A DNA stretch of 64,000 bases, taken from Terebella lapidaria. Its lineage: Eukaryota > Annelida > Polychaeta > Terebellida > Terebellidae. The notes beneath the pieces are model-generated. The model had not been told where the DNA came from, ran no database searches, and saw nothing but the letters and a program-made list of their open reading frames with translations. The stretch lies in NCBI GenBank assembly GCA_949152475.1, contig OX424569.1, forward strand, positions 17,521,170-17,585,169, written 5' to 3'. Below are positions 8,582 to 58,731 of this stretch, piece after piece (the stretch's first letter is position 1; each line of letters begins with the position of its first letter). A program made the position numbers and the translations under genes.

Positions 8582-11500
8582 TTTTTAGGTTACCGGACCT
8601 TTGGTCCGATAACCTATTGGCATGGCGTTGCGTCCGTCGTCCGTCCGTCCGTCCGGCGTTAACATGTTTATCTTTAAAGTTAACGATTGAATCTTTCTAA
8701 AATTTTGCAGAAAAATGCCTAAAAATATCTTGAGAAGGAGGTATTTTTTTGTTTTTTGATTTTCGCATTTTTTTCAAAATGGCGGCCGTTTTTGTCGAAA
8801 AACGCTCAATTTTGGACTTTGACGACCATTTTCTCAAAAACTGTCTGATCAGTTTTGAGTTTTTGGTTTCAAAAGATTCCCCTTATATACCTCTGTGATA
8901 TGTATAAGTTTGGTTGCCCTAAATTCGCCGGTTTCCGTGTGGCGGCCATTTTGAATTTTTGGCGGGTCGGCGAAAAAAAAATTTTTCGCCCCAAATCGCA
9001 TTACTATCCATTTTGGGTCATTTCTAGGCAAATAAAAATTTTCACCCTTTGAAAAAAATTTCGGCACTTTTTTCCTTCATAATGGGAGCTGTCCGGACTG
9101 TACTCATAGAACACTTGAACATAGAGCTTAGAAATTGGCACTTTCAAATGGGAAGTCATATATGGCGACTTGTGTGGTGACCTTGAATTTGACCTTGGAT
9201 GACCTTGAAAGGTCAGAACAGCCATTTTTGGGTCGAAAAATGCCCAAATTTACACCTGGTCTGTATTTTCTCGGAAACTGTCTGATCAGTTTTGAGATTT
9301 TTGTTTAAAAAGATTCCACTTATATACCTCTGTGACCTGTATAAGTTTTGTTGCCCTTGTATCGCCGATCTCCGTGTGGCGGCCACTTTGAATTTTTGAC
9401 GAGTAGGCGAAAAAAAAAAATTTTGGGCCATTTCTAGACAAAAATTTTTTTTTCACCTTTTGAAAAAAATTTTGGACTTAGAAAATTTTCGGCACTTTTT
9501 TCCTTCATAATGGGAGCTGTCAGGACTGTACTCATAAAACACTTGAAGATAGAGCTTAGAAATTGGCACTTTCAAATGGGAAGTCATATATGGCGACTTG
9601 TGTGGTGACCTTGAATTTGACCTTCAATGACCTTGAAAGGTCAAAACAGCCATTTTGGGTTCAAAAAATGCCCAGATTTGCCTCTATAGATGAAATGCTT
9701 GCAGATAGAGCTCATGTTTGCATTATGAACATATAGGAATACATATATTGCACAACTAATGATGACCTTGAACTTGACGTCAGATGACCTTGAGTGCCAA
9801 ATGTCTGACTTGGAATGTGTATATTGACCTGAGCGGCCTAAACGATTCCACCCAACATATAGAATATCAAATGCTGCACACATACTTGTAATGGTAACAT
9901 CGAAGTTCATACGGATGACCTTGATTGGTAAATCCCAAGGTCATATGTTTACACTGCGAACCTTGATTGGTAAAAGGTCTGTTACCTGCCAATGCTGCCA
10001 TGGCCAAACCAAAATTGTCCGGTAACCTATCTTTTCTTTTTGATACATAACACTCCTCATATGTACTCCTATGATGTCTATAAATTTCGTTGCGCTTGAA
10101 TCGCTCGAAGTGGGCCATTTTGGGCCCAAACTTGGCCCAAATGGGACTTTCCCTGTTAAATTATCCTATGCTTTATAATGGGACACATTAAGCCTAATAT
10201 CTCACTTTATATTGATATTAGAGACTAGGAATCAATTGTGGACATATAGGAAATGATATATGCTGATTATTCTCGTGCCCTTGATGGACCTCTGACCTCG
10301 GTTTCAAGGTCAGAGCGGTCGTTTTCGTCGTAAAATGGCCAATTTTGGACTTTGACGGTTGTTTTCTCAAAATCTGTTCAGTAACTTTTTTTCTTATTAA
10401 TACATAACACTCCTCATATGTACCCCTGTGTACCGTGGCTGATATATGCCATAGTTTTATTTTTCGGATTTCATTTATTTATTTTTTCCAGATGGACACT
10501 CTAAAGAAAAGAAAATAATTAAATTCACGTACTTAATGTTAAATACGCGTACTTAATATTAAATACACATACTTAATATTAAATACACGTATATAATATT
10601 AAATACGCGTATATAATATTAAATACGTGTACTTAATATTAAATACGCGTACTTAATGCTAAATACGCATACTTAACGTTAATTACGCGTACTTAATATT
10701 AAATTAGCAAAAATTGGATGTGGTTATGTTGCTGTGTATGTCTCGTGAAACAAGGTATGTATCAAGCGACATGGCGCTTCAAAAAAAAAAAATATCTAAC
10801 TGTCTGGTATTTAATATTAAGTACGTGTATTTAACATTAAATACACGTATTTAATATTATATACGCGTATTTAATATTATGTACGTGTATTTAATATTAA
10901 GTACGCGTATTTAATATTAAGTACACGTATTTAACATTAGGTACGCGTATTTAATATTAAATACACGTATTTAATATTATATACACGTATTTAATATTAT
11001 GTACGCGTATTTAATATTAAGTATGCGTATGTAATATTAAGTACGCGTATTTAACATTAAGTACGCGTATTTAACAATAAATACACGTATTTAATATTAT
11101 ATACATGTATTTAATATTATGTGCGCGTATTTAATATTAAGTACGCGTATTTAAACATTAAGTACGTGTATTTAATATTAAGTACGTGTATTACATGCGT
11201 CTGGAAAATATCGTAAATAAATGAAAACTAAAGAATAAAACTATGGCATATATCAGCCACTGTACCTGTGACATGTATAAATTTCGTTCCCCTTGAATCG
11301 CTCGAAGTGGGCCATTTTGGACCCAAACTCGGCCCAAATGGGACTTTCTCATGTTAAATTCTCATATGCTCTATAATGGGACACATTAAGCCTAATATCT
11401 CACTTAATATTGCGATTAGAGACTAGGAATCAATTGTGGACATATAGGAAATATATTATGCTGAATATTCTCGTGACCTTGAATTTGACCTGTGACCTCA

Positions 11501-12377
11501 GTTTCAAGGTCAGAGAACAAAATGGCTAATATCTCGCTTATTATCGACTTTACAGCTTAGGAATCAATTGTGGACATATAGGAAATGATATCAGCCGAAT
11601 ATTCTGATGACCTTGAATTGACCTTTGACCTCATTTCAAGGTCACAGGGCAAAATGGCTAATATCTCGCTTCTTATCGACTTTACAGCTTAGGAATCAAT
11701 TAACAACATATAGGAACTGATATTTGCAGATTATTGTCATGATCTTGAATTTGACCTTTGACCTCATTTTCAAGGTCACAGGACAAAATGGCTAATATCT
11801 CACTTATTATCGATTTTACAGCTTAGGGATCATTTGTGGACATGTAGGAAATGATATATGCTGAATATTCTCGTGACTTTGAATTTGACCTCTGACCTCA
11901 TTTTCAAGGTCAAGAACACAAAATGGCTAATATCTCACTTATTATCGACTTTACAGCTTAGGAATCAGTTGTGGACATATAGGAAATGATAAACGCCTAA
12001 TATTGTGATGACCTTGAATTTGACCTTTGACCTCATTTTCAAGGTCACAGGACAAAACGGCTTATATCTCACTTATTATCGACTTTACAGCTTAGGAATC
12101 AGTTGTGCACGTATAGGGAATGATGTATGCCAAATATTTTGATGACCATTAATTCGACCTTCGACCTTATTTTCAAGGTCATAGAACAAAATTGCTATTA
12201 TGTTTTACTTGTTATTGAATTTACAGCTTAGCAAACAATGGACATATCGGGAATGATATACATGTTTGCTGGATATTCTCATGACGTTGCATTTGACCAG
12301 TGACCTTATTTTCAAGGTCACATGAATATAAAACATATTTTGTCCGGTAACCTGTCTTAGCCCTTGGGCTAATTTTT
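8582..12377 (+). mobile_element. HINE-like element, forward, with 134-bp core monomers; interrupted by a foldback element
   Basis: The 5' head is AGGTTACCGGACC TTT GGTCC GATAACC, itself able to form a hairpin, followed by a GTCC/CGTC-rich run. The 3' end (about 12340-12377) is GTCCGGTAACCT, inverse of the head, followed by TTAGCCC TT GGGCTAA, a perfect 7-bp stem-loop, then a T run. The core first holds diverged modules with 'ATGGCGGCC' (YY1-like) stretches, then a tandem array of ~134-bp monomers from about 11400. The foldback transposon at 10431-11264 lies inside. No protein is encoded. Architecture and T-rich insertion context match HINEs, and bivalve 'pearl' elements are similar in having tandem-repeat cores. 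Confidence 0.7.
10431..11264. mobile_element. Foldback transposon FB1, 834 bp, 6-bp TSD CCTGTG
   Basis: The termini are TACCGTGGCTGATATATGCC and, from the right end, TACAGTGGCTGATATATGCC. Inverted similarity continues to about 60 bp. CCTGTG flanks both sides (10425-10430 and 11265-11270). The same HINE segment without insertion is seen near 62470 (CCCCTGTGACATG), giving an empty site that confirms both boundaries. The left arm (about 10530-10705) is a 20-bp array of ACTTAATATTAAATACGCGT. The right arm (about 10808-11195) is its reverse complement. The ~100-bp centre is unrepeated. No open frame of note, so the element must use a transposase from elsewhere. Confidence 0.8.
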
Positions 12378-13719
12378 ATCTTTAAAGTTTACAGGTGAAT
12401 GTTTCTGAAATTTTGCACAAAAATGCCTAAAAATGTTTTGAAAAGGGGATATTTTTTGTTTTTTGTTTTCGCATTTTTTTCAAAATGGCGGCCATTTTCG
12501 ACGAAAAACGGCCGATTTCTGGCTTTGGCGGCCATTTTCTCAAAAACTGTTCAGACAGTTTTGAGATTTTTGTTTCAAAAGATTGCCCTCATATACCTCT
12601 GTGATGTGTATAAGTTTGGTTGTCCCTGTGTCGCCGGTCTGCGTGTGGCGGCCATTTTCATTTTCTCGACTGGTCCCAAATGGGACTTCCTCATGTTAAA
12701 TTCTCCTATGCACATTTTTCCAAATATGTCACTTAATATTAAAATTAGAGATTAGGAATCAATTGTGGACATATAGGAAATCATATTACTGAATATTCTC
12801 ATGACCTTGAATTTGACCTTTGACCACATTTTCAAGGTCAGAGCACAAAATGACTAATATCTCGCTTATTATCGATTTTACAGCTTAGGAATCAATTGTG
12901 AACATATAGGAAACGATATATACAAATTATTCTCTTGACCTTGAATTTGACCTTTGACCTAAATTTCAAGGTCAAAAGACAAAATGACTAATATCTCGCT
13001 TATTATCGACTTTACAGCTTAGGAATCAATTGTGAACATATAGAAAATGATATATGCTGAATATTTTGGTGACCTGAATTTGACCTTTGACCTCATTTTC
13101 AAGGTCAGAGAACAAAATGGCTAATATCTCACTTATTATCGACTTTACAGCTTAGAAATCAATTGTGGACATATAGGAAATGATATATGCTGAATGTTCT
13201 CATGACCTTGAATTTGACATCTGACCTCAGTTTCAAGGTCAGAGCACAAAATGGCTAATATCTCGCTTATTATCGACTTTACAGCTTAGGAATCAATTGT
13301 GGACATATAGGAAATGATATATGCCGAATATTCTGTTGACCTTGAATTGACCTTTGACATCATTTTCAAGGTCACAGGACAAAATGGCTAATATCTCACT
13401 TATAATCGATTTTACACCTTAGGGTCAATTTGGGACATATAGGAAATGATATATGCTGAATATTCTCGTGACCTTGAATTTGACCTCTGACTCACTTTCA
13501 AGGTCGAGAGTACAAAATGGCTAATATCTCGCTTATTATCGATTTTACAGCTTAGGAATCAGTTGTGGACATACTATAAACATGATCAATGATATATTCT
13601 GGATATTCTCGTGACCTTGAATTGACCAACAACCTTATTTTTGAGGTCATGGGACAAAAGGATAATATCTGAAATATATATTGTCCGGTAACTTTTCTTC
13701 GCCCTTGCACTAATTTTTT
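12378..13719 (+). mobile_element. HINE-like element lacking its 5' head, fused to the preceding copy
   Basis: It begins with ATCTTTAAAGTTTACAG, a position about 90 bp inside the normal element, joined directly to the 3' terminus of the previous copy. It contains the ATGGCGGCC modules, about seven to eight 134-bp monomers and a degenerate 3' end (TTGTCCGGTAACTTTTCTTC then GCCCTTGCACTAA). Confidence 0.65.
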
Positions 13720-14885: not shown

Positions 14886-17800
14886 CTATGGAAGGTTACA
14901 GGCCAATATATGTTTTATATTTTAGATATAAGCCCTTCTCCTCTTGAAAATAAGGTCACTGGTCAAATTCTAGGTCACGAGAATATTCACCATATATTAT
15001 TTACTTATATGTCCACAATTGATTGCTAAGTTGTAAATTCAACAATAAGAAAGACATATCGGTAGTAGCAATTTTGTCCTGACACCTTGAAAATGAAGTC
15101 AAATATCAAATTACAGATTATTACAAATCAGATAATTTGGAATATATCATTTCCTGTATGTCCACAATTAATTCCTAAGCTATAAAGTCGATAAAAGGTG
15201 AGATATTAATCATTTTGTGCTCTGACTTTGAAAACAAGGTCAAATATCAAATTCAAATTCGTGAGAATATTCAGCATATTGATTGCTAAGCTAAGATTGC
15301 TAAGCTGTAAAGTAGATAATAATCGAGACATTATCAACTTTGTGCTCTGAACTTGAAAACAAGGTCAAATATCAAGTTCAAATTCATGAGAATATTCAGC
15401 ATATATAATTTCCTATATGTCGACAATTGATTCCCAAGCCATAAAGTCGATAATAAGTGAGATATTGGCCAATTTGTGTTTTGAACTTGAAATTGAATTC
15501 AAAGGTCAAATTCAAGGTCATCAAAATATTCGGCAGATATCATTTCCTATATGTCTACAATTGATTCCTAAGCTATAAAGTCGATAATAAGCGAGATATT
15601 AGCCATTTTGTATGGCGGCTTAATGCTGCCATTATTCATGCCTGAGTTTAGATCATAGATCATCGAGTAGTTTTGAAATCAGTTTCCTAGTTAGTCAACA
15701 GTTATTTCCGGTTACGAAACTAAGTTCCATCATGATGCAAACCTATCTAGCATAGCACAAACCTTTACAACATGGGGTTTGCGCCATGCGGTTTGTGCCA
15801 TGCTAGAAAGGTTTGCGCCGTGTTAAAAAAGTTTGTCCCTTGTTATAAAGGTTTATGCCCTGCTATAAAGGTTTGTGCCGTGTTAGAAAGGTTTGTGCTC
15901 TGCTATAAAGGTTTGCGCACTGATATAAAGGTTTGTGCCATGCTAAAAAGGTTTTTGCCCTATTATAAAGGTTTGCGCCCTGATCTGAAGGTTTGTGACA
16001 TGCTAAAACGGTTTGTGCCCTGTTATAAAGGTTTGCGTCCTGCTATTAAGGTTTGTGCCATGCTATAAAGGTTTGCGCCCTGCGAAGGTTTGTTTCATGT
16101 TGAAAGGTTTGTGCCCCGTTATAAAGGTGTATGTCCTGATATAAAGGTTTGTGCCATGCTATATTAGGTTTGTGCCCTGCCATACCGGTGTGTGTAGTGT
16201 TAAAAAGGTTTGTGCCCTGTTATAAAAGTTTGCGCCCTGTTATAAAGGATTGCGCCCTGATATAAAGCTTTGGGACATGTCAAAAGGATTTGTGCCCAGT
16301 TGTAAAGGTTTGAGCCCTGATATGAAGGTTTGTGACATGCTAAAAGAGTTCATGCCCTGTTATAAAGGTTTGCGCCCTGCTATATAGGTTTGTGACATGC
16401 TAAAAAGGTCTTTGCCCTGTTATACAGATTTGCGCCCTGATATAAAAGTTTGTGCAGTGTTTAAAATGTTTCTGCCCTGTTAAAAAGGTTTGTGCCGTGC
16501 TAGAGAGGTTTGCGCCATGCTAGAAAGGTTTGCACCTTGCTAAAAACGTTTGTGCTCTGCTAGAAAGGTTTGTGCCGGTTGTAAAGGGTTTGTTTCATAA
16601 CTGAAAATAACAGTTTACTAACTATGAAACTGCTTTCAAAACTACTCTTAATAATGGCAGCATTGGGCCGCAGTAATTTTGTGCTCTGACCTTGAAAATA
16701 AGGTCAAAGGTCAAATTCAAGGTCATGAAAAATTCAGCATATATCATTTCCTATATGCACACAATTGTTACCCAAGATGTAATTCGATAATGAGCGAGAT
16801 ATTAGCCACTTTGTTCTCTAATCTTGAAAACAAGATCAAAGTTCAAGTTCAAGGTCACGAGAATATCCCGCGTATCTTATTTCTTATATGTTCACAATTG
16901 ATTCCTAAGCTGTAAATCGATAATAAGCGAGATATTAGCCATTTCTGCTCTGATCTTGATATAAGGCAAAGTTCAACTTCAAGGTAATGAGCATATTCAG
17001 CATATCTCATTTCCTATAATGTATGTACACAATTGATTCCTAAGCTGTAAAGTCAATAATAAGCGAGATATTAGCCATTTTGTGCTCTGACCTTGAAAAT
17101 AAGGTCAAAGGTCAAATTCAAGGTCAAAATTGTATTCAGCAAAGATCATTTCCTATATGTTCACTATGAATTCGTAAGCTATAAAGTCGATAATAAGCGA
17201 GATATTAGCCATTTTGTTTATTGATCTAGAAAATGAGGTCAAGTGTCAAATTCAAGGTCACCAGAATATTCAGCATATACCATTTCCTATGTGTTCACTG
17301 TGGATTTCTAAGCTGTAAAGTCGATAATGCGAGAGGTGTAAGCCATTTTGTGCTCTAACCTTGAAAATAAGGTCAAAAGTCAACTTCAAGCTCATCATAA
17401 TATTCAGCGTTCATATAATTTCCTATATTGATTCCCAAGTTATATAGTCCATAACCGGTGAGATATTAGCCATTTTGTCAAAGGTGAAGTTCAAGGTCAC
17501 GAGAATATTCAGCATACGTGTCTAAAATTTCCTATAAATCGACAATTGGTTCCTAATCTCTAATCTCAATATTAGGTGATATATTATGAATAATATGTCC
17601 CATTATAAAGCATAGGAGAATTTAACATGGGAAAGTCCGGTTTGGGCCAAGTTTGGACCAGAATGGTCCACTTCTAGCAATCCAAGGGCAACGAAACTTA
17701 TACACACCGTAGGGATATTTAGAAGGGGTCGTGTGCATCAATAAGCAACAAAGTTACTGAACCGATTTTGAGAAAACAACCTTCAAATCAAACACTGGCC

Positions 17801-17932: not shown

Positions 17933-18850
17933 AATTAGCCCAAAGGCTGAGAAAGGTTACCACACAACATGTTAGCCATTTTGTCCCGTGACCTGGAAAA
18001 TGAGGTCAAAAATCAAATCCAAGGTCACGAGAATATTCAGAACATACCACTTCATGCCAAACTGTAAGGTCGATAATAAATTAGATATTAGCCATTTTGT
18101 CCTCTGACCTTGAAAATCAGGTCAAACCCCAAATTCAAGGTCATTAAGATATTCGTCATACATGTACATCATTTATTTCTATATGTACACACACCTTAAT
18201 CTCAGACTGTAAAGTTGATAAGTGTGATATTAGCCATTCTGTGCTCTGTACATTGAAAATAAGGTCAAAGGTCAAGTTCAATGTCATGAGAATATTCAGC
18301 AGATATCGTTTTCTATATGTCCACAATTGATTCCTAAGCTGTATATTCGATAATAAGTGAGATATTAGCTATTTCGTTTTCTGACCTTGAAAATGACGTC
18401 AAATTCAAAGTCATCAGAATATTTGGCTTATATCATTTCCTATCTGTCCCCAATTGATTCCCAACCTCTTAAGGCGAGAATGTGCTCTGACCTTGAAAAA
18501 GGTCAAATTCAAAGCCATGTGGATATTCAGCATATATTTTTCCTGCATGTCTACAGTTGATTCCTAAGCTGTAAAGTCAACAATAAGCACGATATTAGTC
18601 ATTTCGTTCTCCGAACTTGAAAATGAGTTCAAAGGTCAAGTTCAATGTCACGAGAAAATAAGTACATATCCTATATGTCCACAATTGATTCCTAATCTGT
18701 AAAGTCGATAACAAGCGAGATACCAATTTTGTCATGTGACCTTGAAAATTAGGTGAAAGGTCAAATTCAAGGTCACGAGAGTATCCAGCATATATCATTA
18801 CCTATATGTCCACAATTTATTCCTGAGCTGTGAAAAATCCTAATGTGGGC
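17933..18850 (-). mobile_element. HINE-like element, reverse, partial
   Basis: Its 3' end is TTAGCCCAAAGGCTGAG AAAGGTTACC on the plus strand at 17936, followed by about six reverse 134-bp monomers to about 18830. The 5' half is missing. Unrelated sequence follows up to the foldback element at 18894. Confidence 0.6.
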
Positions 18851-18893
18851 TCGAAAGGCCCAAAAGGATTTGATATGCACAAATTGGCATATA

Positions 18894-19969
18894 TACGGTG
18901 CCCGTGATAGGACATGATGAAAAAAAACCTACTTCGTTCGCACGAAGTACTACTTCGTTTGCACGAAGTATTACTTCGTTTGCACGAAGTACTAAGTCAT
19001 TTGCACGAAGTACTAAGTCGTTCGCATGAAATAATAAGTCATTCACATATCCATACATGGTATTCGTACATTGTAATAAGCCTATGAAGTGATTGATCCT
19101 GGTGTTACCAATTAACCCTTTAATTACCATAGTCAATTTTCAGGGTCCTCCCTATGTCCTAATCTGGATAGCGCTATTTGCATTTATTAATCAACTCATA
19201 GAATAATGAATAGCCCATCGATACATATAAATTTATCTCAAATAATAGCAGAAGATTGTATTCAGTAATATCTATTTGATCAAGGTTTTCTTAGTTTAAA
19301 ATGACCACATGTTTGCTAGGGGAAGTATGGATGATTTAGAGCGCCATGTGGTGCTTATGGAGATATAAGGCACCAAATTTGGAGCACCATGTGGAGCGCC
19401 ATGTAGCGCTGGTTTTTTAATGGGGTAAGATGATGTAGAGGGGTTTGTCAACTATGTAACATTAGTACAGTAGTACTTCGTTCAAACGAAGTAGTAATTT
19501 GTGCAAACGAAGTAGTACTTAGTGCAAACGATTTAGTACTTTGTGCAGACGAAGTAGTACTTCGTTCAAACTAAGTAGTAATTCGTGCAAACGAAGTAGT
19601 ACTTCGTGCAAACGACTTAGTAATTCGTGCGAACGAAGTAGTACTTCGTGCAAACGACTTAGTACTTCGTGCAAACGACTTAGTACTTCGTGCAAACGAC
19701 TTAGTACTTCGTGCAAAGACTTAGTACTTCGTGCAAACGAAGTAGTACTTCGTTCAAACGAAGTAGTACTTCGTTCAAACGAAGTAGTACTTCGTTCAAA
19801 CGAAGTAGTAATTCGTGCAAACGAAGTAGTAATTCGTGCAAACGAAGTAGTACTTCGTGCAAAGGACTTAGTACTTGGTGCAAACGACTTAGTACTTCGT
19901 GCGAACGAAGTAGTACTTCGTGCGAACGAAGTAGTATTTTTTTCATCATGTCCTATCAGGGGCACCGTA
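18894..19969. mobile_element. Foldback transposon FB3, 1076 bp, 6-bp TSD CATATA
   Basis: The termini are TACGGTGCCCGTGATAGGAC and (right end inverted) TACGGTGCCCCTGATAGGAC. The inverted match continues through ATGATGAAAAAAA. CATATA flanks both sides (18888-18893, 19970-19975). The arms are 21-bp repeats built on the small palindrome ACTTCGT...ACGAAGT, short on the left (about 18930-19045) and long on the right (about 19470-19935). The ~420-bp centre is unrepeated, with no convincing protein. Open frames on both strands over the right arm arise because 21 is a multiple of three. Confidence 0.8.
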
Positions 19970-19975
19970 CATATA

Positions 19976-22670: not shown

Positions 22671-23215
22671 TGATATAAGCTGAATATTTTCGTGACCTTG
22701 AACATGACCTATGACCTCATTTTCAAGGTCAGAGCACAAAATGGCTAATATCTCGCTGATTATCAACTTTACAGCTTAGGAATCAATTGTGGACATATAG
22801 GAAATGTTATATATGACCTCATTTTCAAGGTCACAACATAGAATGGCTAATATCTCGCGTATTATTTACTTTACAGCTTTGGAATTAATTGACCTTACGA
22901 CGGTGTATGCTTTGAGTTGTTCGGCAATATTTGTCCGAGGTGTACGCTTCACAGAAAAGGCGTTCAACTATGACAGTCGTAAGATCAACTGTGGACATTT
23001 TAGAAATGATACATACTGAATGTTCTCAAGACCTTGAATATGACCTTTCACCTCATTTTCAAGGTCAGAGCACAAAATGGCATATATCTCACTTATTGTC
23101 AACTTTACAGCTTAGAAATCAATTGTGGACATATAGGAAATGATACATGCTAAATATTTTTGTGACCTTGAAGTTACCGGACCATCTGTCCAATCACCTA
23201 TTGGCTAGCCGATAA
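22671..23215 (+). mobile_element. HINE-like monomers, forward, partial
   Basis: Roughly four ~134-bp monomers with DR1-like TGACCT pairs are present, ending in a rearranged terminus (GTTACCGGACCATCTGTCC...CCTATTGG) at about 23175. Confidence 0.5.
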
Positions 23216-23816: not shown

Positions 23817-23822
23817 TTTATT
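23817..23822 (-). terminator. SRRT: Candidate poly(A) signal AATAAA of SRRT
   Basis: TTTATT on the plus strand gives AATAAA about 425 bp past the SRRT stop codon. It is the first canonical signal noted in that direction. It would give a 3' UTR of about 0.45 kb. Confidence 0.4.
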
Positions 23823-24245
23823 ATTTTCTCCACATGGGCAATGTAGAAAAGAGACCTGTACAGACCGACAAAAACACATTTTGTCTATCTTCCAGTTTCT
23901 GTTGAACGAAAAGATAGCGATCAGAAATAGTTTAGGAGTTAAAATATTGTACACATGATTGCTCAAGTCAATACAAAATTTCTAAAAACATACAAATTAA
24001 GTAGGCATTGATGATGATTTGAAGTTTACACGCCAATTTTTCTTTACTCTTTGTGCACAAAATTTCACAAGATGAGTGAAACTCTTGACTGTACATCCGA
24101 CATATATTTCTAGTCTCACTGTTCAATAAAATGCATTCCATATGATCTATTTACACGTGGGTCGAACGTATACCCAGAGACGTTTCCCTAACCATGCCAC
24201 AATATATTCTCTGACTATGACAATATATACATGATCTAAATGCAA

Positions 24246-27200: not shown

Positions 27201-30200
27201 GGATGGGTTACGTTGGAGGGGGGGGGGGGGGAGGGTTCATGTGAAAACTGATAGGAATATTTTGACAAACCTGACAAAGTTCTGGATCCCTTTCGATCAT
27301 AAAATCTGGATTGGCTTCCTTGGATTTGTCATCCATACATTCACCTAAAAGGCAACGAATTTGGGAAGTTACGTTATTAAGTTGATTGCACATAACTAGA
27401 AGTTTTCTTACACTTCACTGTGAAAGACTTACCAAAGTAAGCCTCCTCTTCATAACTTCCCTCGTCCACCAGATAATCTGTGATGTTTTTGAGGACTGGA
27501 TTGTTCGAGACCAAACCAAAACTCATGGACATCTTGGACTGGAAAAACGAATATGACACAAGAATTTGTCAAAATTCACAATCAGAAGTTGCAGTATAAA
27601 CACAACAACGAATTTATCAATACACAAGAAACTTCATTCATGACTGAATCTGTTTGTATCATTTCATTTCTAAATGTACATTGTACACTATACAAAGCGG
27701 TTGCTACGAGGAGTGAATTGAAAGCCACTTACATCCTTGTCTTCGTCCTTTTTCTCTTCATGCGAAGGCCACAGGTTCCAGCGGTTATCAAAGTTCTGGA
27801 CGATTTTAGCCGCATGTTTGATATCCTGTTTGGTGATAGTCTTGTGTCCTGTGATGCCGTTGACTGGTCGCACTCTCTGCTTCAGTTCTCGGTTGACGAT
27901 TGCACCCATCTCGCAGTCGCGAAGCTGTGGAGAAAATTTCATTCCACTTTTTTTCTTGACGACTAATGTACAGCGATTCGTACGATCAATAAGACGATAA
28001 GAGAATAGACACTGCACACAAGATGTGCGTCGATTATAAGTTTACCCTGATGTTGTTGAGATTCCAGCAGATTTCCTTGATGTTGACAGTTCTGTCGAAT
28101 GTCACCCAGCCACGTCGGAAAAACCGGCGCTCGGGCTGTGGATCTTGCAGGGCCACACGTAAGAAACCCGGAAAACGCTTGCACATCTAGAACAGATGGG
28201 AAAAGATGTAGACTGGGTATTTATTTGCAATCAAGCAGATTCCCACTGTCTCAACTACTACTCAAGTTGCAGCTGGTTCACACTTACAGCCTCGACTTCC
28301 TGCCTTGTGATGGTGGGTGCCAGGTTTCTCAGGAAGATGGAGTGAGTTTTGTGTAGCGCCTGTGGTTTGTTCTCGTCCTTATGTTCCCCGTCCTCTGCGG
28401 CCGCAGTGTCAGCCTCCTTGTCTTCACTCGTCTTTGTGGCTGGCAAGAAAACAAGCAGTGTCGAAAACCATCATGTGCATGTCAGGACACAGTATTATGG
28501 AAAGCACACCAACATTCACTAAAGGCTCAACAACAGGTTCATAACAGTACCACACCATCAATCATACAGTATTCAGTACCTGTGATACTACATGATTGAA
28601 CAACCTAATTGATGCATTACATAGTTTAGAATATGTCTATCTACCTTCTTTCTTGGAAAGCTTTGCCTCGGGTGAATCCTTTATGTCATTTTCTGCATTC
28701 TCGGACGCTTTACCTACACAAAAATCAAGTGTGCAAACAGTAAATCATGTGTTTATACATGTATAGCATTGTCACATTTCATTAGTTTTCCCTGTATCAA
28801 ATGACGTACGTTTAGGTGATGATTCGGCGTCCGAGTCGGAAGCACTCCCACTCTCAGAGTCTGAGCCACTGTCTGAGTTATAGTCTCGACGCTTTTTCTT
28901 GGACACCTGGAGTAGAAGGAAAGCAGTAAACACATGCACTAGCACTATTGCAAGACTATTGCAAGTGGAAATCCAAAGTAAAATTTCCGGTGAGGCAAAC
29001 TTTTCACTCACAGGTTTCTCTTTTTTAGCTTCAGTTTCTTCATCAGCTTTGCTCTCCTGTGTTCAAATAGAATAACCCAATATTAGGAAAAGAATCAGTA
29101 GTACCATAATTTACCAATTCAATGCAAAACAATATCCCCACATGTATTCATATATCTATGGATAACAGTGGAGCTTACATACTATATAGCCGTGTATAAA
29201 GTGTATGAAATTTTTAAGCAGCACTGCTTCCCCTGGATACATATAACCTAGGAGCTTCACAATTAACAATGAACTCACAACACTTTTGTCTGCGTCGTCA
29301 TCCTCCTCCCCCTCCTCTTTTTCATCGTCCTCCAGTTCGTCCTCGGGGCCCTTAGACTTGGCTGCAGTCGGCGTCTTGTCCGGGATACTTCCCTCCTCAT
29401 GGCTGCAACACGGAAGTCAGGATAGCATTTATTTTTACAGGAAATTGCTTAAAATCATGTTACGAAGATTGTGTATCTGATGGAATACATCGGCCACATT
29501 TCTCAGACGTATTCAGAGATTTTGAATATGTTCACATGACCAATTTGTGTGACTGTCAAACAGAAACATGTCAGAGATAAAACTCACTCGGAGGAAGCCT
29601 GAGCCTCTGAGTTCTGTCGACTTGTTCTGGTTTCCTTCTCTTCAGGCACAGACTTGGCCTCTGCCTCCAGACTGCGAATATCTTTCTCTGTGCCGCCTTC
29701 CATCAGGATCACAGCTGCAGCACGACATAACAGCTTAGAGGGGTGTCAGGGTAGCTACATACAGACTAGCCACGAAACGAAAACACATTGAATGAACGTA
29801 CAACGGTTCTTGTACAAATCTAGATGCTATAAATTAAACTTGATCATGATAGTTGAAAACTGAACACAGATGAACTTATTTCAAGGTATAAATGTCAGAA
29901 ATTATATAAGAGAACATTTTCCAGCTAGTGTGACATGTTACTCGATTCTACAGTCTAACCTGCGTCCAGTAGTCGAACCAAATCTTCTGTGTGATCAGCA
30001 TCCACAGGACACGAGTTGACCATTGACATCTCTAGCAACTTGCTGAATACATCACAACGATGCTGCAAGGCTTTGTTGGCATCCTGCTGCCGCCTCTCAA
30101 ACTCCTCAGGACTGTACTTAGCTTTGAACCTGGTTGGAAGGAGGGGGGGGGGGGGGGGGGGGGGAGGAGAGAACATTGAAATTGTGAGATTTACTGATCT

Positions 30201-32316
30201 GACACCGTATGTATTTCTACAAGTGTCAAAAGGATATTATAGACTTGTGTACAATGATTCAATCTAATTGATTCTTCATTGTATTCACATGGATATGGTG
30301 ATGTTTAAACCACTGAAAACCTGAATTCCTTGCAAAACTGTACCTAATACAGACTGTTGACTTTCATCACACATAACAATTCAAGTTTTGATTGGCGTTT
30401 CTTGAAATGGTTCAGAATGAACCTATGGAATCTTTCACATATTCGGACACAACAGGACCAGCGATATACAACATTCAACTTCAAACTTAAAACACATTAC
30501 TCATTTTTTCTCAGCACATTTTAAACAGCATGTAGGTAGATTTGTGAAGCATATTTAAAATGTTACTTAAATATCAAACAACCTATTAGAGCTTACCCTT
30601 CCATTGTGCCTTTGACAGGCTTTTAAAACCTCCAAGCGATTTCTAACCAACAAACTTTGATTTCTGATCACACAAAACAATACGATCATTTATTTAGTGG
30701 TAACATGCCTGGCCAGTAGAAAGGCCTCATTGGTTTCCGCATTTCAGTGATGTATTCACATTCATAGAGACATATGGCAGCCTTCTGTTTGGCTTTTCAT
30801 TCAAGTCCTGTGGTTTTCTGACCATTTTCAGCTTTGTGATTTGTGATGGTTTTCCGACCTTTCCTCTTTGCACGTTTGCATGGATTGATCTTCAAGCAAA
30901 GCAAGTTGAAAGTATGCATGGCAATACTTTTCCTGATACTGTGCTCCATTTTCATTGCAAGTTTGAAGTCCTTTCATCGCATGTATTTTCATGTGTGGCA
31001 TTTTTGAGCCAGTGATGAGTCCAACATAGGATCATTTTCTGATTTCATATTTGATGGTAGAATGAAATGATAATTCACTCGATCAAAAAAATAAACATAA
31101 ATGCTGTGGAGAAAATATTTGTGGGTTAAAACATTGATAGGGCTAGTCTATAAAGTCAGATAATGATCTTAGATCACAGAGATTTAAATCTTTCCCAAAA
31201 AAAACAAACTCGAGTGAAACACTTGCACGGAAACTGATTGAGTTTTATCCAGATCTTTGCGAATCATACCATTCCTCTTCTTTATGAGCCAAAAAGAACT
31301 CGTTGATCTGCTGTTTCTTGAAGTCGACTTTATACTCGTTGTACTTTTTGATGGACTCCTCGTCCGTGATGTTGTCATCTTGTGAGGAGAGGAACTGTTT
31401 GAAGGACATCATTGGAGGCTGGGTCGGGTACTCCGGCTCTTGGCTGCGGATTTAATACAACGAAATATTGTACTTTGCTTTTGTCTTATTAAGTCTTGCC
31501 TCTGTCTCTTGAATGATATAAGAGACCAAAGGTTATTAAGTGTGATACTACATTTAACTTTTAAACTTGAATCTAACTACAAGAACTGAATACATTTTCA
31601 TTCAAGTAGATTGTACAATACATAGTTACTCACTTTCTCTGAGGGTTGAAGCCGCCGTGGTGAGGGGGGCCCATGTCCCCACCCCCTGAGGCTCCACCCC
31701 ATCCCCCATGGTGTCCATGGCCACCGCCGTAACCGCCGCCGAAGTTGTCGCCACCGCCACCTCGGTCCTCCCTGCAACACACAAGGAATAATGGCATCAA
31801 CCTCTCAAAACGTTCTGCCACAGAGCCACTGACACCAGAAAAGGGCAGGATTCTCAAATTGCTGATACCCTACCAGTCACCACGGAATCGCTTCATGGGA
31901 GGGCTGATGTCCTGTCGGCCATTTGGACTGTAACGCTCCCTCCGTCGGTCAAACTCGCGATAATTATCCCGTCGATCACGCTTGTCCCAGCCCATCCGGC
32001 CGCCGCTACACAGTAAACAAAAACAATAATTTAATATTGGATCTATGTGGTGATGTATGAAGCATTCAAGTATTTAAAAATTCCAATAAAATCAACAGAA
32101 AGAATTCTTAGTGCAAAATAAATACTAACTAATTGTACATTTCGTTTCGAGCAGAAATTATTCGCAGAAAACGCTGATTTTGACGTACCGTTCCTCCCAC
32201 TGGCCCCCGCCTCCACGTTCACGGTTCTCTCGGCTGTCTCGTCTTTCGTAATCATTCCGCTCGCGACGAAACTTGTCTCGTCGGCGGCGATCGAACTCAT
32301 CATCACTGTCACCCAT
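24246..32316 (-). CDS. SRRT: SRRT / ARS2, serrate RNA effector molecule homologue (complete, 21 coding exons)
   Basis: A nuclear RNA-processing factor. The family links the cap-binding complex to microRNA maturation, RNA 3'-end formation and exosome targeting. Exons in order: 32316-32189, 32005-31874, 31771-31634, 31443-31270, 30129-29960, 29714-29588, 29402-29279, 29056-29012, 28906-28810, 28713-28645, 28439-28288, 28186-28046, 27924-27733, 27538-27433, 27344-27271, 27148-26995, 26861-26753, 26457-26304, 26017-25792, 24750-24642, 24318-24246. All phases agree and the total is 2694 nt (897 aa; the human protein is about 876). The start is the conserved [15 protein letters not shown]. Seen in order: an RD/RE-rich N-terminus; a Gly-rich stretch; the conserved N-terminal domain (about 139-245); an acidic and SD-rich low-complexity region (about 290-400); the RRM-like core (from about 434, SIFLRNLAP); [20 protein letters not shown] (about 635-655); an atypical zinc finger (Cys731, His747, His752); a Gly/Arg-rich tail; and the C-terminal EYRDLDAP motif. 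The 17th intron is U12-type. An acceptor-like site just upstream of the start suggests a 5' UTR intron. Confidence 0.96.
25411..25559. mobile_element. 149-bp mariner/pogo-type MITE in a SRRT intron
   Basis: The inverted ends are CAGTGGTCTCCCTCAGATAAGAC and GTCTTATGAGGGGGACCACTG (read left to right), flanked by TA on both sides (25409-25410, 25560-25561). A TA duplication and CAGT start suit Tc1/mariner-pogo MITEs. It has no coding capacity. It sits between the 19th and 20th coding exons, well away from the splice sites. Confidence 0.75.
26458..26752 (-). other. SRRT: U12-type AT-AC intron of SRRT
   Basis: No GT or GC donor gives a readable join between the exons encoding LGRKDADA and EVEKFV. 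Instead the exon ends GATGC and the intron opens ATATCCTTT, the minor-spliceosome donor consensus. It ends with AACCTTAAC, a U12 branch-site match, about 11 nt before an AC terminus. Joining GC+A gives RKDADAEVEKF, the same length as the corresponding stretch of the vertebrate protein. Confidence 0.88.
30144..30165. repeat. (G)22 tract serving as a poly-C polypyrimidine tract for SRRT
   Basis: Twenty-two consecutive G on the plus strand lie about 14 nt upstream, in transcript sense, of the acceptor before the exon 30129-29960. The pre-mRNA therefore has an all-C tract next to its 3' splice site. A similar run of 14 G lies at about 27218-27231 in another SRRT intron. Confidence 0.8.
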
Positions 32317-33800
32317 TGTTTGTCTACTGCTTACAAATCTGTACAGCAATTAAACAATAGTTTTAATAGAATATCAAAATATAGAGCAGGAACAATAGTG
32401 AAAAGTAGAACCAAGTAATCATGCCTCACAAATCAGAACTGATTAGAACTATTAAAAAAAGTGTATGGTATACATGTATGTAGTATGTACTATCAATTAC
32501 AATGTGCCTGGATTTGTGACTGGTCAATGAGTATGGAATGGAAACGAGTTGCACGAGCAGAAGAAGTACACAAGCAGAATCGGTAGATGTATAGTAGCTC
32601 CAGCAGAGGCTCTCTCCAATGTAGAAAACAGTGTTGGGAGACAGCACCCGCCTGTGCTTCAAATTGTGGACTCTCGTTTCCAATATGAATAGTAGGCCCA
32701 ACAAAATTATGAACAGAAATTCACCATTTAGCTACTGTACGGCCTACATCATACATGTAGCATGACAACACATTTCTGAAATATTGGGTCTACATGGTCA
32801 TACAATACACCAAAAGAAAGCTTGAAGCTTCAGGGAAACAAATATGTAACAAAATTGACCGTAGGTACTGATGCAAAGGTGCTAGAGCATTTCAAAGAGG
32901 GGTACCGTTAGGTCCTTCTGAAGACAAAAATTAGGGAAAAGTCCAAAAAAGTGAAGCTCGCTGTTTACACGCAAACAAAACGTGATAATACATATTTCAG
33001 GGCTTGAAAATATTCAATATTAATTACTTTACACATTGCAGCATCATACACACTAAAATTATATGACGTTGGTGGTGATCATTGTGCCCAAAGTTGTTAA
33101 ATTTGCCCTCATCAGGCCATTAGAAGTAGAACAAATGATCAATGAAGCCATTTCTGACAAAATTCTAGTCACAAAAAAATGTTTTATTTGTAGCAAAATG
33201 TCCAAGGTACTCCTTTACTGTAATGTTATCAAAGGTCAATAAAAAAATCTTATGAGATATGCCCAAAATAGAATTTTTCTCTGATGTCTCCAAAAAACGA
33301 TAGCCAAGCTTGTTTACATGGGCGATAATAGGGGCTTCGAGTGCCAACCAATACTAAACAGATGGCGGAAGTGCAGATGAAACACGACAGGCCCTTCATT
33401 TTGAAGCAATTTCCCAAGCAGTACGGGGGTTTATGATTGAAATATCGTTATATTATGAAAGAAAAAACATTAATTCACAAATTAAACCATGTATGATCGG
33501 CGACAAGAAGTTTTAACTTGTTTTTTGGAGTGAAAAAAAACTTTGAGCTGAACTTTCACCTCCAAAATTGGGTCAGATCTCAAAACGAGGGCTCTTGTCA
33601 CCTAGGCCGATGTCTAACCTTTCCATACAGACCAAATATGCTATGTAAAAGACATTCTGATTGGTCGAAAATGACCGTAACATGACCCCACCCAAACCGG
33701 GTTCAACGAGCTTCACTTTTTTCGCTCCCGCGAAAAACTGCTTGCGCGCGCCGCCTAGCGGAGTGTTGTCATGCTAATACATGTAGATCTAGACTGAACC
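32317..33800 (-). promoter_or_regulatory. SRRT upstream region, probable 5' UTR intron and promoter
   Basis: On the minus strand TTGCTGTACAG|ATTTG, about 20 nt before the start codon, looks like a splice acceptor, so the transcript may begin further upstream. Around 33660 the minus strand has GACCAATCAG (a CCAAT box). 33715-33775 is CpG-rich (CGCGCGCCGCC). A CCAAT box on the plus strand lies at 33348-33352. No exact start site can be assigned. Confidence 0.35.
33362..33436 (+). CDS. Possible short plus-strand open frame at a promoter-like ATGGCGG
   Basis: ATG in the context ACAGATGGCGG opens 24 codons (MAEVQMKHDRPFILKQF...) before TGA at 33434-33436. It stands just 3' of a CCAAT box, upstream of and divergent from SRRT. 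It could be the first exon of a divergent gene, a uORF, or chance. No clear donor within it and no downstream exon were found. Confidence 0.2.
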   Translation: MAEVQMKHDRPFILKQFPKQYGGL

Positions 33801-36800
33801 GTAACCCTACTCCATGGCTAAACCTGGGATAAACCTGTATTGCCTTTGTTTCAGGAGAATCATTTACTGTAAATCATTTTACCACAGTAGATATTCTAGA
33901 TCTAGACCTAGTCTACTTTCCCCAACAAGAAAATGGAGTGCGGCTCCACCCAGTCCCAGGCCAATGAAGTCTCCTGCCCGCCATTTGGTGTTCACAGTTC
34001 AGTATCAAGCCAAGAGTAAGACGGACGCAAGGTCAATTTGAGATTTTCATTGCATCTGGGGCCATTCACATCTGGCAAAAGCTGCTTCAGATCTCAATTA
34101 TTTAGATATAAACACGATGACTTGCTTTGTTTGTTCGTCTCGATTCGGGGCAAAATCACCCACCTGAAAATTTCACGCGTTCCAAGTTTTGTTTTTCCGC
34201 AATCCCAAGATGCACCGCGCGTGACTGTCGCGAAATTGCGGACTGCGAAATTATAGTCAAGAATAAGACCAAAGGTCCCGTAGCTTACCGGTGAAACATG
34301 TACGGTTGTCCTAAATAAAAGTACATATCAAAGCCGGCTCTGGCCCACACTGATGATCAACAATTCAAAAAGATGTACTGTACAAAGGTTATATGTACCA
34401 ATTAAGAAATTGTTCATTACATACACACTGGTTATTCGGGACCAAGTAACGGATCAAAGTAATGGATCGAACGGTAGCGAGATCCGTTATGCCATGACCC
34501 CGATAGCCGATTTGCTAAGAAATTAACCGTGTATTAACCTGTATAAAATTTGTCAATCAGTCATTTGTCAATCAGTCAATTGTTTGACAATCTAGTCATT
34601 CTTGTAAAACATTCTAATTTAGGTATTCCGAAGTCACATGCATGTGGTAGGAGGCTTTGATGAGCCACCGGTTTATTATACCGCTAATTATAGGCAAATA
34701 TCAGATCAGCGGAGGATCGACTTATCAAACCGGGTCGGTTAATAGATTTGCCGACCTTATGGCAATACTGAATATATTGAGCGGTGCATGTTACTATTAT
34801 CAGATATGTGTGTAATAACTTAGTATATCTTTGTCATTCAATATATTCCGGTGGCGTATCTAAGGGGAAGGGCGCAATAACCAATTGGCGGATCTTAGCG
34901 GGGGTGTCATATTTACCAATTCAGATCACTACATACTTATTATATTACACGATGACCATTGAAGATAATAGTTTGAATTCATATGACTAGTTAATCTATT
35001 TGAATGTTATGGCTCCTTGGATGCTCACTATAGCACTTAATGAGGAATCAAATTTGCAGGGTTTTTTGCAAGTAATTGAGATAATGACATGTAGTAAAAA
35101 TCATTATGATCAGTGGGACTAATTTTTTCGTTTGCTAAAAGTGAGTCTCGAGACCATACTATAAAGGTGCCAAACCTTTCTAGGGAGCTTACGTATCAAA
35201 TTCAGAGCAATGTGAACAGACACACAGTTAGCTGTTGAAGAGTGGACCTTTTCTGTCCCGAATGTGACACCCGCTGTGATATCAACACTGGTGAATCGAG
35301 ACACTAATATGCACAAGATTACAAAGATGGGATGATATATATGCCATCATGCAATGTACTTGCATACTTGACAGGCTCGGCGTAAAGTTCAAGAAGATCA
35401 TTGTGCCGACCATGAAAGTTCATTCATAGGCATTATACATCCCTGTTTGAGCAGTTTGGCGGTCAAAACTTGTGCTCTAAATATGAAATCCTGGTAAGAT
35501 GACCTTGCTCCAGAGTAACGGATTAACCGTCACATGTACATATACGCCCTATAGGCTGGGAGACAGAAAATTTATAGAAAATTGATATTATGAAAATAAA
35601 AAAAATAATAAAAGAATATGAAAATTAAAAATTATGAAAATAAAATAAAAAATAAAATAAAAAATAAAAAGTCACACTTGTCATATAACCTTGTACACAA
35701 TTTGTCTCTCTGAACTTTTCAGATAAGATCAAAACAGGAAGATAATATCGGAAAATCAGTTATTATCTGAAATAATAACCGTGATGGCAACCGTTTGTTC
35801 GAGAATAACGCCACCAAATTGTTGTCAAAGAGAGAAAATGCTAACAATCAATGTCGTGTTAAATATATTTGGTAGCACAATCGGTGTATTTTTTTCCGAC
35901 AAAATACACTGGATTGTGAGTAACTACAATATTACGTCCTTATCTGCTTATTTTGCCCCCATTTTTATGCAAATATGATGTTCAAAAATATTTTACAACA
36001 TCGCTTCCAGGTTGGTATGAGGAATATTAGTATGCATGTAGTGTTGGAAAGTCAATTTTTTGAATGCTGTTGACAGTAGGGAAAAACTAGATTGTATGTC
36101 AATATCACCATTTTCTGTACATGCTTTCTGACATAAGCCCTATCACGGGATTTTCAGAGTTCTTGTTTCACTGCAGATAACAGCTTACCAGTAGTTGGAA
36201 GGGAAGCTGCTTTGTGGAACACTCAGTAGAACGTGTAATATAATGCTGCATGGAAACATTTGTGTAACTCCGGTACCCAGTAGCTATATCCTTCTGATTG
36301 ACGATGATATTATAAGACATTAGGACAGACTTATGATTGTCCAGCACCTCCCTTCAAGAGCACCCATAGGTAGATAGTACAGATGTATGATGCATTGCAA
36401 TGTGTGCCAAAAAATATTCAACCCATCAATGGCAATAATAATAATTTCAATCAAATTCAATATTGTTAGATGCTTTGTCAGCTGATATCATGACAAACTC
36501 AATATCTGACAAATTCTTGACAAAGTATAAATATCTATGAACATCATGATCTGAAGCTACCCCCAAGAACCTGTGAACTACACCTAAGAAATCATCTGGA
36601 ATACTACCTAATTTCAATATTGTCTCCCCTCTTCCATACACTCCCCCCGCCTCCCCCCCCTCCTCCTCCCCCCCCCCCCCCCCTCAACTCGTATCCGAAC
36701 GGTTCCCCCTGTCCCGTGGTAAATTTCTGGATCCGCCCCTGACTTATAATCGCGCATAAAATCAAGCAACCGCATGATTAAGGCAGAGAGTTTAGAATAT

Positions 36801-36960
36801 TCTACTTTCTCTGCTGATGAAGGTCGCCAAACTAGCAGTGCCATCTTCCTACCCGAATATGTATCATAACGAATCATACGATGTAACTTCCAGTAGAATA
36901 TTATCCGTAATTTTGAGCTTAGGGGTATATTTCAATGCATTATGATGAATATACATGTTG
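33801..36960. other. Intergenic; no gene seen
   Basis: Mostly A+T-rich sequence. It includes an A/T simple-sequence stretch of AAAATAAAATA type at about 35595-35670 and a C-rich run at 36640-36690. The C-rich run is followed on the minus strand by GGGGCGGATCCAGAAATTT (about 36724-36742), which resembles ends of common invertebrate DNA transposons, but no matching second end was found. Confidence 0.35.
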
Positions 36961-37006
36961 GCAGTACAACCTGACGATATATTCTTGGAGGGTGAGAGGG
37001 ATTAAT

Positions 37007-37478
37007 TACGGAGCCTCTGAGAGGACATGGAAGAAATATTTTTAGCTCATTGTTATTGCGTTCCCTCGCAATAATATTGCGTTCCCTCGCAATAATATTG
37101 CGTTCTCTCGCAATATTATCGCGTTACCTCCCATTCCGGATCGCGTTCCCTCGCAATCCGGATCGCGTTCCCTCGCGATATTATCGCGTTCCCTCGCATT
37201 CCGGATCGCGTTCCCTCGCGATCTTGTAGAATAACCTTCTCAGAAATCATTGGCGTCAGCACAATGCGAGGGAACGCGATCCAGAAAGCGAGGGAACGCG
37301 ATAATATCGCGAGGGAACGCGATAATATCGCGAGGGAAAGCAATAAGATCGCGAGGGAACGCGATCCGGATTGCGAGGGAAGGCGATAATATTGCGAGGG
37401 TACGCAATAATATTTTGAGGGAACGCAATAACTATATGTCAAAAAATATTTCTTCCATGTCCTTTCAGCGGCTCCGTA
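37007..37478. mobile_element. Foldback transposon FB4, 472 bp, 6-bp TSD ATTAAT
   Basis: The termini are TACGGAGCCTCTGAGAGGAC and (right end inverted) TACGGAGCCGCTGAAAGGAC. The inverted match continues through ATGGAAGAAATATTTTT. ATTAAT flanks both sides (37001-37006, 37479-37484). The arms are ~21-bp repeats of ATTGCGTTCCCTCGCAATAAT on the left (about 37053-37220) and the reverse complement on the right (about 37265-37430). Each unit is itself a small hairpin. The centre is about 40 bp. The terminal sequence is clearly related to that of FB3. Confidence 0.8.
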
Positions 37479-38227
37479 ATTAATAGCTCGCACAAAATTC
37501 TGAAATTTTTAGACATTTCGAACACCAAACGTGGCATGGACAGCGATGAGAATCTAGTAACATTTTGTGATAATGGTGTAATTCATGTCATAGCGATTAA
37601 ATGCTAGATTGGAGAAATTTGAATGATGTATCATAGAAACTTATACAACAACCGTGGAAAATACTCTTATTATTAACCAGACAATCAATACAGGTTTTGA
37701 TAACAACAAAACATTCTCTATGATGAGGAAACTAATGATGGCCTCTACTTATATTATTTCCATATTATATTGTATTCTATTAATTTAAAGATGAAGTAAC
37801 GACGCATATATGCAGACTCCGGAGAATAAAGAAAGGAATTTAATGTTGCCTTTGCGGGGAAGAAATGAAACCTCTGACACTTGCTGGTACTGAAAACCCA
37901 TAAAACCCATCTTATATCATACTTTTACACACTGGATATAGTAAAGTGTCATTCCCTGGTCATTTTGACAAAGTAAATGGTAGACCAAACATAATCTCGG
38001 AGCAATCAAGATGAATGTGTTCAGTGATATTAGTCTGAAATTGTCATCTAAATGGACAAAGAAATAGTAAACCTTTTTGAACCCCAATCAGATTAGTGTT
38101 TAGAAAACTCTGGTTTTGCTCATGATGCGGGGGGAGGGGGGGGGGGAGGCGGGCGGGAGTGTACGCACATATCTACTATATGTAGCTATCATAATTGACC
38201 TCACTCACTGGCCTTTACATATATCAG

Positions 38228-38703
38228 TATGGCGCCCCGTTCGTGCCACAAAAAAGATAATTCATTGTTTTTCTAACTCATACGTATGAGATAAAAAGTC
38301 ATACGTATGAGATAATAAGTCATACGTATGAGATACTATCTCATACATATGAGATACTAAGTCATACGTATGAGATACTAAGTCATACACATGAGATAAT
38401 AAGTCATACGTATGAGATAGTATCTCATATGTATGAGTATGTCATAGTATCTCCTACCTATGACATAGTATCTCCTACGTATGACTTAGTATCTCATACG
38501 TATGACTTAGTATCTCCTACGTATGTCATAATATCTCCTACGTATGACTTAGTATTTCATACGTATGTGTTAGTATCTCCTACGTATGACTTGTTATCTC
38601 ATACGTATGTGTTAGTATCTCCTACGTATGACTTTTTATTTCATACGTATGAGATACATAAAAAAATAACTTCCCTTTTTGGTGGCACGAACGGGGCGCC
38701 ATA
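38228..38703. mobile_element. Foldback transposon FB5, 476 bp
   Basis: The two ends are identical for at least 22 bp when inverted (TATGGCGCCCCGTTCGTGCC). The 6-bp flanks TATCAG and TTCCAG match at four of six positions and could be an eroded target duplication. The arms are 21-bp repeats of GAGATACTAAGTCATACGTAT on the left (about 38275-38435), inverted on the right (about 38440-38655), with virtually no central spacer. An open frame of 94 codons across the right arm is a repeat artefact. Confidence 0.75.
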
Positions 38704-38709
38704 TTCCAG

Positions 38710-39960: not shown

Positions 39961-39984
39961 CTAAAAAGTGTAATGTTGCTGGTT

Positions 39985-42010: not shown

Positions 42011-42016
42011 GCCTGA

Positions 42017-58730: not shown

Positions 58731-58731
58731 G

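Follow-up and report, generated by a model that had tools for sequence, protein, structure and literature searches.

Foldback-type elements with arms of 20–21 bp repeats in Terebella lapidaria: probable non-autonomous members of the IS3EU superfamily

A 64,000-nucleotide stretch of the annelid Terebella lapidaria genome (contig OX424569.1, positions 17,521,170–17,585,169; part of contig 16 and hereafter the window) contains five elements, E1–E5, that very probably belong to the IS3EU (IS3EU/GingerRoot) superfamily as non-autonomous members of foldback type, and that are ordinary representatives of that class. Nothing is new about the superfamily, its ends, the length of the duplication or the foldback architecture. 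What appears to be new, as judged from sequence, is that the arms, which are of unrelated sequence, are built as arrays of 20–21 bp units (31 bp in one family) that are often dyad-symmetric and that also occur in autonomous elements. These foldback families are thereby tied to the IS3EU superfamily, and one of them, E1, is tied to an autonomous element that is intact, has moved recently and has an identical end type and arm repeat. Genome searches covered the whole host assembly (761.6 Mb), genome-wide copy data concern E1, E3 and E4, and names of the form L0xx denote fetched loci. The features of the elements are as follows (window coordinates; strand given where one was assigned).

10431..11264: E1, non-autonomous foldback element; outer end of about 88 bp and inverted 20-bp units, 9 left and 19 right
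10425..10430 and 11265..11270: E1 target duplication CCTGTG, perfect 6 bp
10518..10704: E1 left arm array, 20-bp unit ATTAAATACGCGTACTTAAT
10807..11192: inverted array of 20-bp units in the right arm of E1
62038..62195, + strand: E1 paralogous empty site in a dispersed repeat; 93.7% identity over 158 bp, gapless, one CCTGTG
15611..16675: E2, lopsided element; end repeats of about 100 bp (by eye) and a 20-bp array, inverted units scored 1 left and 39 right
15605..15610 and 16676..16681: E2 target duplication ATTTTG, perfect 6 bp
15790..16576, + strand: E2 array, 20-bp unit GGTTTGTGCCCTGCTATAAA
13170..13326, - strand: E2 paralogous empty site inside the 134-bp satellite; 94.3% identity, one ATTTTG
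18894..19969: E3, foldback element; 21-bp units, 5 left and 22 right, core of about 420 bp
18888..18893 and 19970..19975: E3 target duplication CATATA, perfect 6 bp
37007..37478: E4, foldback element; 21-bp units scored 6 left and 7 right
37001..37006 and 37479..37484: E4 target duplication ATTAAT, perfect 6 bp
38228..38703: E5, foldback element; 21-bp units scored 7 left and 10 right
38222..38227 and 38704..38709: E5 flanks TATCAG and TTCCAG, alike at 4 of 6 positions
37007..37028, + strand: left end of E4, an example of the two-box terminus TAYNGNGSC-N7-KGMCAY found on all ten ends

The five elements lie where a preliminary description of this DNA placed them, and all ten termini fit the TAYNGNGSC code that it proposed. 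A second common box, KGMCAY, was overlooked there; it occupies nucleotides 17–22 of every end, and across the ten ends T1, A2, G5, G7, C9, G18, C20 and A21 are invariant. The two-box motif, which is derived from these same ten ends, has ten full-score matches in the 64 kb, and these are exactly the ten ends (null mean 0.03, maximum 1, 60 shuffles). TAYNGNGSC by itself is loose, with 26 single matches in 64 kb versus 14 expected, whereas pairs of it 300–1500 bp apart with an exact 6-bp repeat occur four times, and pairs with the second box on both ends five times, versus none of either in 300 first-order shuffles. Judged on the sequence between the boxes and past nucleotide 22, the ten ends fall into about four types, the outer ends of E3 and E4 being near-identical. 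A 20-bp repeat at 6873–6945 containing TATGGTGGC was rejected as an element end since it lacks the second box, and a pattern scan of viral contigs for ends of the E3/E4 type gave no matches.

The duplications are also as first described, with four perfect copies of 6 bp and a fifth, at E5, alike at 4 of 6 positions. In the flanks of E1–E4, 6 bp is the sole full match among lengths of 2–10, except that E4 also matches 2/2 at length 2. For two of the insertions, E1 and E2, the window contains an uninterrupted paralogue with a single copy of the duplicated 6 bp. The preliminary description had named beforehand the finding of other duplication lengths genome-wide as grounds for abandoning its reading, and on this test it held for E1 and E3, and for the most part for E4. 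The E1 search gave 633 first-look candidates, 40 of which were scored, with at least 30 full-length places including that in the window; the 20 copies fetched from the top of the list all have perfect 6-bp duplications with no other length from 3 to 10, and each has one TACGG end and one TACAG end. Their lengths (835, 852–855 and 874–879 bp) suggest steps of 20 bp. For E3 (713 candidates, 40 scored), ten copies chosen for the apparent presence of both outer ends were read; nine have a perfect 6-bp duplication and one a duplication of 7 bp, and since two pairs of copies have common flanks these represent eight independent sites. Twenty chosen copies of E4 (1,240 candidates, 40 scored) comprise 11 with perfect duplications, three matching at 5/6, one (L068) displaced by a one-base end shift and five matching at 1–4/6, the last being presumably old or recombined copies.

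A source of transposase for E1 was found elsewhere in the genome. The family A element (C12:16210198–16220545, 10,348 bp, duplication AGAACC/AGAACC) has ends that agree mutually at 23 of 24 nucleotides, the right end agreeing with those of E1 at 22 of 24, and carries arrays of the E1 unit on both sides (20.5 and 12.4 units, element positions 89–497 and 10015–10261). It codes for a 399-residue integrase-like transposase of the DDE (Asp-Asp-Glu) type. Two further copies are 99.2–99.8% identical to it and a third is 97.7% identical, and at L039 and L040 the homology with family A stops exactly at the one terminus seen in each. At the level of sequence, the ends and unit of E1 are linked in these near-identical copies to an intact transposase gene. 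Positions 1–274 of E1 match the right end of family A (91.6%), positions 377–834 (458 bp) match its left end (86.5%) and 38 bp of the E1 core match DNA beside the right array of family A (84%). Because the left 274 bp of E1 correspond to the right end of family A and the right 458 bp to its left end, E1 most plausibly derives from this family by internal deletion. One copy of E1 (L037:5502–6376), flanked by a duplication of its own (TTATGC), sits inside the end of an autonomous copy of family A.

Family A contains a second open reading frame (ORF) of 393 residues, opposite in orientation to the transposase (L057:4596–5774, +). Four relatives were found, three of which come from fish and bear the name G2/M phase-specific E3 ubiquitin-protein ligase(-like), and L054 shows a sub-threshold HECT match; 'ligase' genes of this type may be transposon passengers. 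The second gene differs from that reported for TET-bearing fungal IS3EU elements, which is an alpha-kinase.

A search with the family A transposase produced 456 relatives (E ≤ 0.001), with PF24764 present in all 120 among the matches listed; four of the relatives are named, one a limpet protein, one from Lingula and two from fishes. Asp138, Asp197 and Glu239 (numbering for P0001) are among the residues that do not vary when 40 sequences are aligned. The first catalytic aspartate of family A is residue 163 of a 421-residue open frame (about residue 141 of the 399-residue ORF), with no cysteine ahead of it. The AlphaFold model of P0001, which is 75% identical to the query, has a predicted local distance difference test (pLDDT) score of 89.7 and consists of three N-terminal helices, more helices and a mixed α/β core, its best fold matches being IstA, TnsB, foamy-virus integrase and Mu. 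Sequences of solved structures gave no match.

Family A belongs to a large group. With 150 of 246 candidates scored, the genome has at least 133 matches to Pfam rva_4, many of which lie in open frames of 290–484 residues. Nineteen of the 20 rva_4 loci fetched for their mostly intact frames form one clade of 13 families, which are 28–56% identical to one another apart from one pair at 85%; the DDE triad is present in all 13. Family B (C4:19695657–19704456, 8,800 bp, duplication TTTAAG/TTTAAG) has ends that resemble those of E1 at 19–20 of 24 nucleotides, arrays of 41 bp (2 × 20.5) at both ends that are unrelated to those of E1, and an rva_4 open frame of 385 residues (311 from the first ATG) with an extra 102-residue piece upstream. 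In families A and B alike, the arrays sit between each terminus and the genes. At four other loci, L044 (20 bp), L053 (21 bp), L054 (21 bp) and L049 (31 bp), a single code-like end is followed inwards first by an array and then by the transposase gene. The L053 gene is 2.9 kb from the end, box 1 of L054 reads TACGGAAGC, and the end of L049, TATGGAAGC, has a poor second box, although homology to the copy L050 ends no more than one base away from it. The single ends of L044, L053 and L054 are candidates, having neither a duplication nor a homology break behind them. L055 has both ends and 21-bp arrays, with flanks that form no duplication. A blind screen of the surroundings of the 20 loci for inverted ends flanked by a duplication produced no 6-bp candidate, only two 4-bp matches (L049/L050) and array self-matches (L055); families A and B escaped it because both exceed its span and were resolved by homology breaks and longer flanks. 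Weak inverted-end pairs around the transposase loci (15 of 24 or fewer alike) were not used.

Two side observations concern this set of loci. A variant end type, TAYGGNAGC, with ends TACGGAAGCGTATGCGTGCCAC and a perfect second box, occurs at L041:1129, L041:1356 and L046:7932. A second, distant rva_4 group (L029–L036 and L056) is also present; L056, which is 22–26% identical to the clade, is the member of this group that was scanned for the terminus code, and none was found in it.

The assignment of E1–E5 agrees with the printed features of the superfamily. The available parts of the published accounts give IS3EU elements TA..TA ends, usually 6-bp duplications, an integrase-like DDE transposase, no HHCC (His-His-Cys-Cys) motif and a first catalytic aspartate 100–300 residues into the protein (PMC10045372), and fungal IS3EU elements TAYGG..CCRTA ends with 6-bp duplications (PMC12730594). 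In the window all ten ends start with TAY, and seven with TAYGG; duplications of 6 bp were found in the copies of E1, E3 and E4 in the proportions given above, perfectly in families A and B and, for E2, in the one copy with its empty site; and the E1 partner encodes an rva_4 integrase-like enzyme with the triad, the matching folds, no HHCC motif and the first aspartate within the stated range. The guess that these are IS3EU elements with TAY...RTA ends is thus supported by the printed ends and by genome elements that combine such ends, 6-bp duplications and an integrase-like DDE enzyme. Membership of one known superfamily is the most likely reason why the five elements share end signals and a 6-bp footprint.

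Several observations weigh against this reading. The assignment rests on printed descriptions of the ends, the duplication and the enzyme, and the Foldseek query template-modelling (TM) scores are low (0.24–0.37; 20 rows, E ≤ 0.001). Three of the ten ends (E1L, E1R and E2R) lack a complete TAYGG, the E5 duplication is imperfect and so are the five E4 copies at 1–4/6. No partner of E2–E5 was found among the 20 transposase loci; the nearest end is that of L055, which agrees with the left end of E4 at 19 of 24 nucleotides but has an unrelated unit and no matching duplication. As for the arms, their binding by a transposase is itself a prediction.

Another superfamily with 6-bp duplications could in principle be responsible. 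Dada elements make duplications of 6–7 bp, and the length of the duplication, together with the single 7-bp copy of E3, is what Dada or hAT6 would explain. hAT6 elements are described with 6-bp duplications in the available part of the same report that prints TAYGG ends for fungal IS3EU (PMC12730594), and those are the ends seen here. The enzyme encoded between E1-type ends with a 6-bp duplication is of the integrase-like rva_4 type and is neither a Dada-type nor a hAT transposase, a comparison that applies to E1. An origin in either superfamily is therefore scarcely credible, at least for E1. A single transposase that moves all five elements, with the arms as irrelevant passengers, would account for the two-box code common to the ten ends and for the near-identity of the E3 and E4 outer ends. 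This is improbable, since the ends fall into about four types of which that of E1 is matched by family A, E2–E5 have no BLAST match to family A or B, and the 13 transposase families include some with visibly different ends. The original wording, one transposase system mobilizing elements whose interiors have no common ancestry, is not supported: the ends, unit and part of the core of E1 match family A. The autonomous element with matching ends that was sought exists for E1 and was not found for E2–E5 among the 20 loci. Membership of one superfamily, rather than dependence on one transposase, is preferred because E2–E5 do not match the E1 partner by BLAST, and several transposases would then read a single end code, each accompanied by foldback derivatives of its own, a picture that for E2–E5 is an extrapolation from E1. 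E3 and E4, whose ends are near-identical, may share one transposase.

The arms follow a common layout of an outer end (the two boxes and then AT-rich DNA, about 35–130 bp), a tandem array, a core and the array inverted. The unit is 20 bp in E1 and E2 and 21 bp in E3, E4 and E5, and unit numbers differ between sides as listed above, the second left unit of E2 being recognized by eye only. Long inverted arms, internal tandem repeats and a short core are found in E1, E3, E4 and E5, for which the term foldback is apt; E2, with its single scored left unit, has these only weakly. The predicted hairpin of E4 has an energy of −201 kcal/mol versus a shuffle mean of −71. Between elements the units are unrelated, as had been proposed: none of the ten unit pairs beats shuffled units at p < 0.05 (lowest 0.068).

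The arrays might instead be ordinary minisatellites, expanded through slippage or hairpin replication within foldback DNA that is neutral, with the common period as a process bias; this is possible though not favoured. Unit counts do vary between arms and copies, six of 14 units (E2, E4, L041, L043, L044 and L046) lack individually significant dyad symmetry, and arrays of 30, 35 and 36 bp occur at some clade loci and one of 40 bp in L056, of the other rva_4 group. The distribution of the arrays argues otherwise: those with a period of 20/21, 40–42, 62 or 63 cover 2,136 of 3,923 bp of the elements versus 73 of 60,077 bp of the remaining window (E4 does not enter this count, as none of its best rows reaches 2.5 copies; its 21-bp rows appear in the repeat listing), and in the autonomous families A and B arrays again separate the genes from each terminus. 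The dyad symmetry summed over the 14 units also exceeds that of all 1000 shuffles and is individually significant (p < 0.05) in eight (E1, E3, E5, L047, L049, L053, L054 and L055); in a separate test on the five window units, E1, E3 and E5 alone stood out. The set of 14 includes the L046 unit, although the 21-bp array of L046 lies outside the terminus and was rejected as an in-element arm, and the placement of the L041 and L043 arrays inside an element is putative. A 20/21-type array is present in seven of 13 clade loci versus one of seven loci of the other group, a count that is not used as support because some rows (in L044, L053 and L055) are not arm arrays. The arm arrays are thus most likely transposase-binding arrays, as predicted from their placement and symmetry. 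Their periods of 20–21 and 31 bp approximate two and three helical turns; helical phasing is a lead rather than a result because the 30-, 35- and 36-bp arrays exist too.

Integrase-type DDE transposases join ends to target DNA with a fixed stagger. In the proposed mechanism, a DDE transposase (Pfam rva_4) supplied by full-length relatives elsewhere in the genome would recognize the two-box terminus of about 22 bp and join the element to the target with a 6-bp stagger, giving the 6-bp duplication. E1 would have arisen by internal deletion from the 10.3-kb autonomous family A, whose protein probably mobilizes it in trans, and E2–E5 would be moved by sister transposases. The arms, tandem arrays of 20–21 bp units that lengthen and shorten by whole units, would offer the transposase additional binding sites at even spacing, a role already suggested for Galileo and further foldback elements. 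A more speculative and rather unlikely extension is that two codes are read by IS3EU transposases. The first, setting the cutting, would be the conserved two-box terminus; the second would be a long array of dyad-symmetric sites in the subterminal DNA, whole helical turns apart (20–21 or 31 bp), family-private in sequence and turning over rapidly with the N-terminal DNA-binding domain. Foldbacks would then be arm-only parasites that outcompete their autonomous parents for transposase through longer arrays. These elements offer a clean system for asking why foldback arms evolve and why the repeat length stays near two (once three) turns of DNA while the sequence is free.

No description of foldback arms or 20/21-bp arrays in IS3EU elements was found in a literature search of titles and passages, with Repbase and subscription journals outside its range. 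A link between IS3EU and tandem repeats is already in print, since a table of Pacific oyster satellite DNAs gives two of them, CgiSat35 (690 bp) and CgiSat47 (129 bp), as resembling DNA/IS3EU; their monomers are far longer than 20–21 bp and the available text does not mention foldback structure (PMC8268682). Styx of Zymoseptoria likewise has an IS3EU-related DDE transposase and new insertions with 6-bp duplications, but it is a fungal element of 7.9 kb for which the accessible text mentions no foldback arms (PMC10853768). Galileo is foldback-like with a known transposase-coding form, and its arm repeats, which vary independently on each side, are said to hold secondary transposase-binding sites, multiple sites being called a convergent trait; according to the sections available, it differs in belonging to the P superfamily and in its repeats of about 210 bp (PMC3573991). 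Tetris of Drosophila virilis is a non-autonomous foldback with tandem repeats in its arms, but has 8–10 bp duplications, units of about 220 bp and no autonomous partner found; the passages available place most foldback elements in the Mutator superfamily, with exceptions, and give the source of the Tetris transposase as not known (PMC4079207).

Drosophila FB elements, of another superfamily, have arms of short tandem repeats (10, 20 and 31 bp, lengths for which the literature search provided no backing). In the window itself, a Pfam scan found no transposase domain in the regions covered (six of six frames of 22,700–37,692 and 38,700–53,692, two of six frames of 53,690–63,999, and ten chosen ORFs, with 1–22,700 covered through one ORF only). 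E1–E5 contain no rva_4-type gene, as judged from their lengths (0.5–1.1 kb) and mostly array content. Domains that mark the host as an animal are also present in the window:

about 31.4 to 25.8 kb, - strand: ARS2 domains
43213–43509: exon encoding a ZP domain

Arrays of the 134-bp satellite occupy 11392–13670, 15171–15611, 16676–17428, 18498–18831, 53095–53737 and 62602–63814, in both orientations, and the satellite carries AGGTCA-like half-sites (TGACCTTTGACCT). About three monomers of it (73–85% identical) are present in family A (element positions 1727–2126, L057 about 3225–3624), so that the transposon may spread the satellite. A tandem array of a nucleosome-sized 147-bp unit (12.4 copies, 20427–22255) lies about 0.5 kb from E3.

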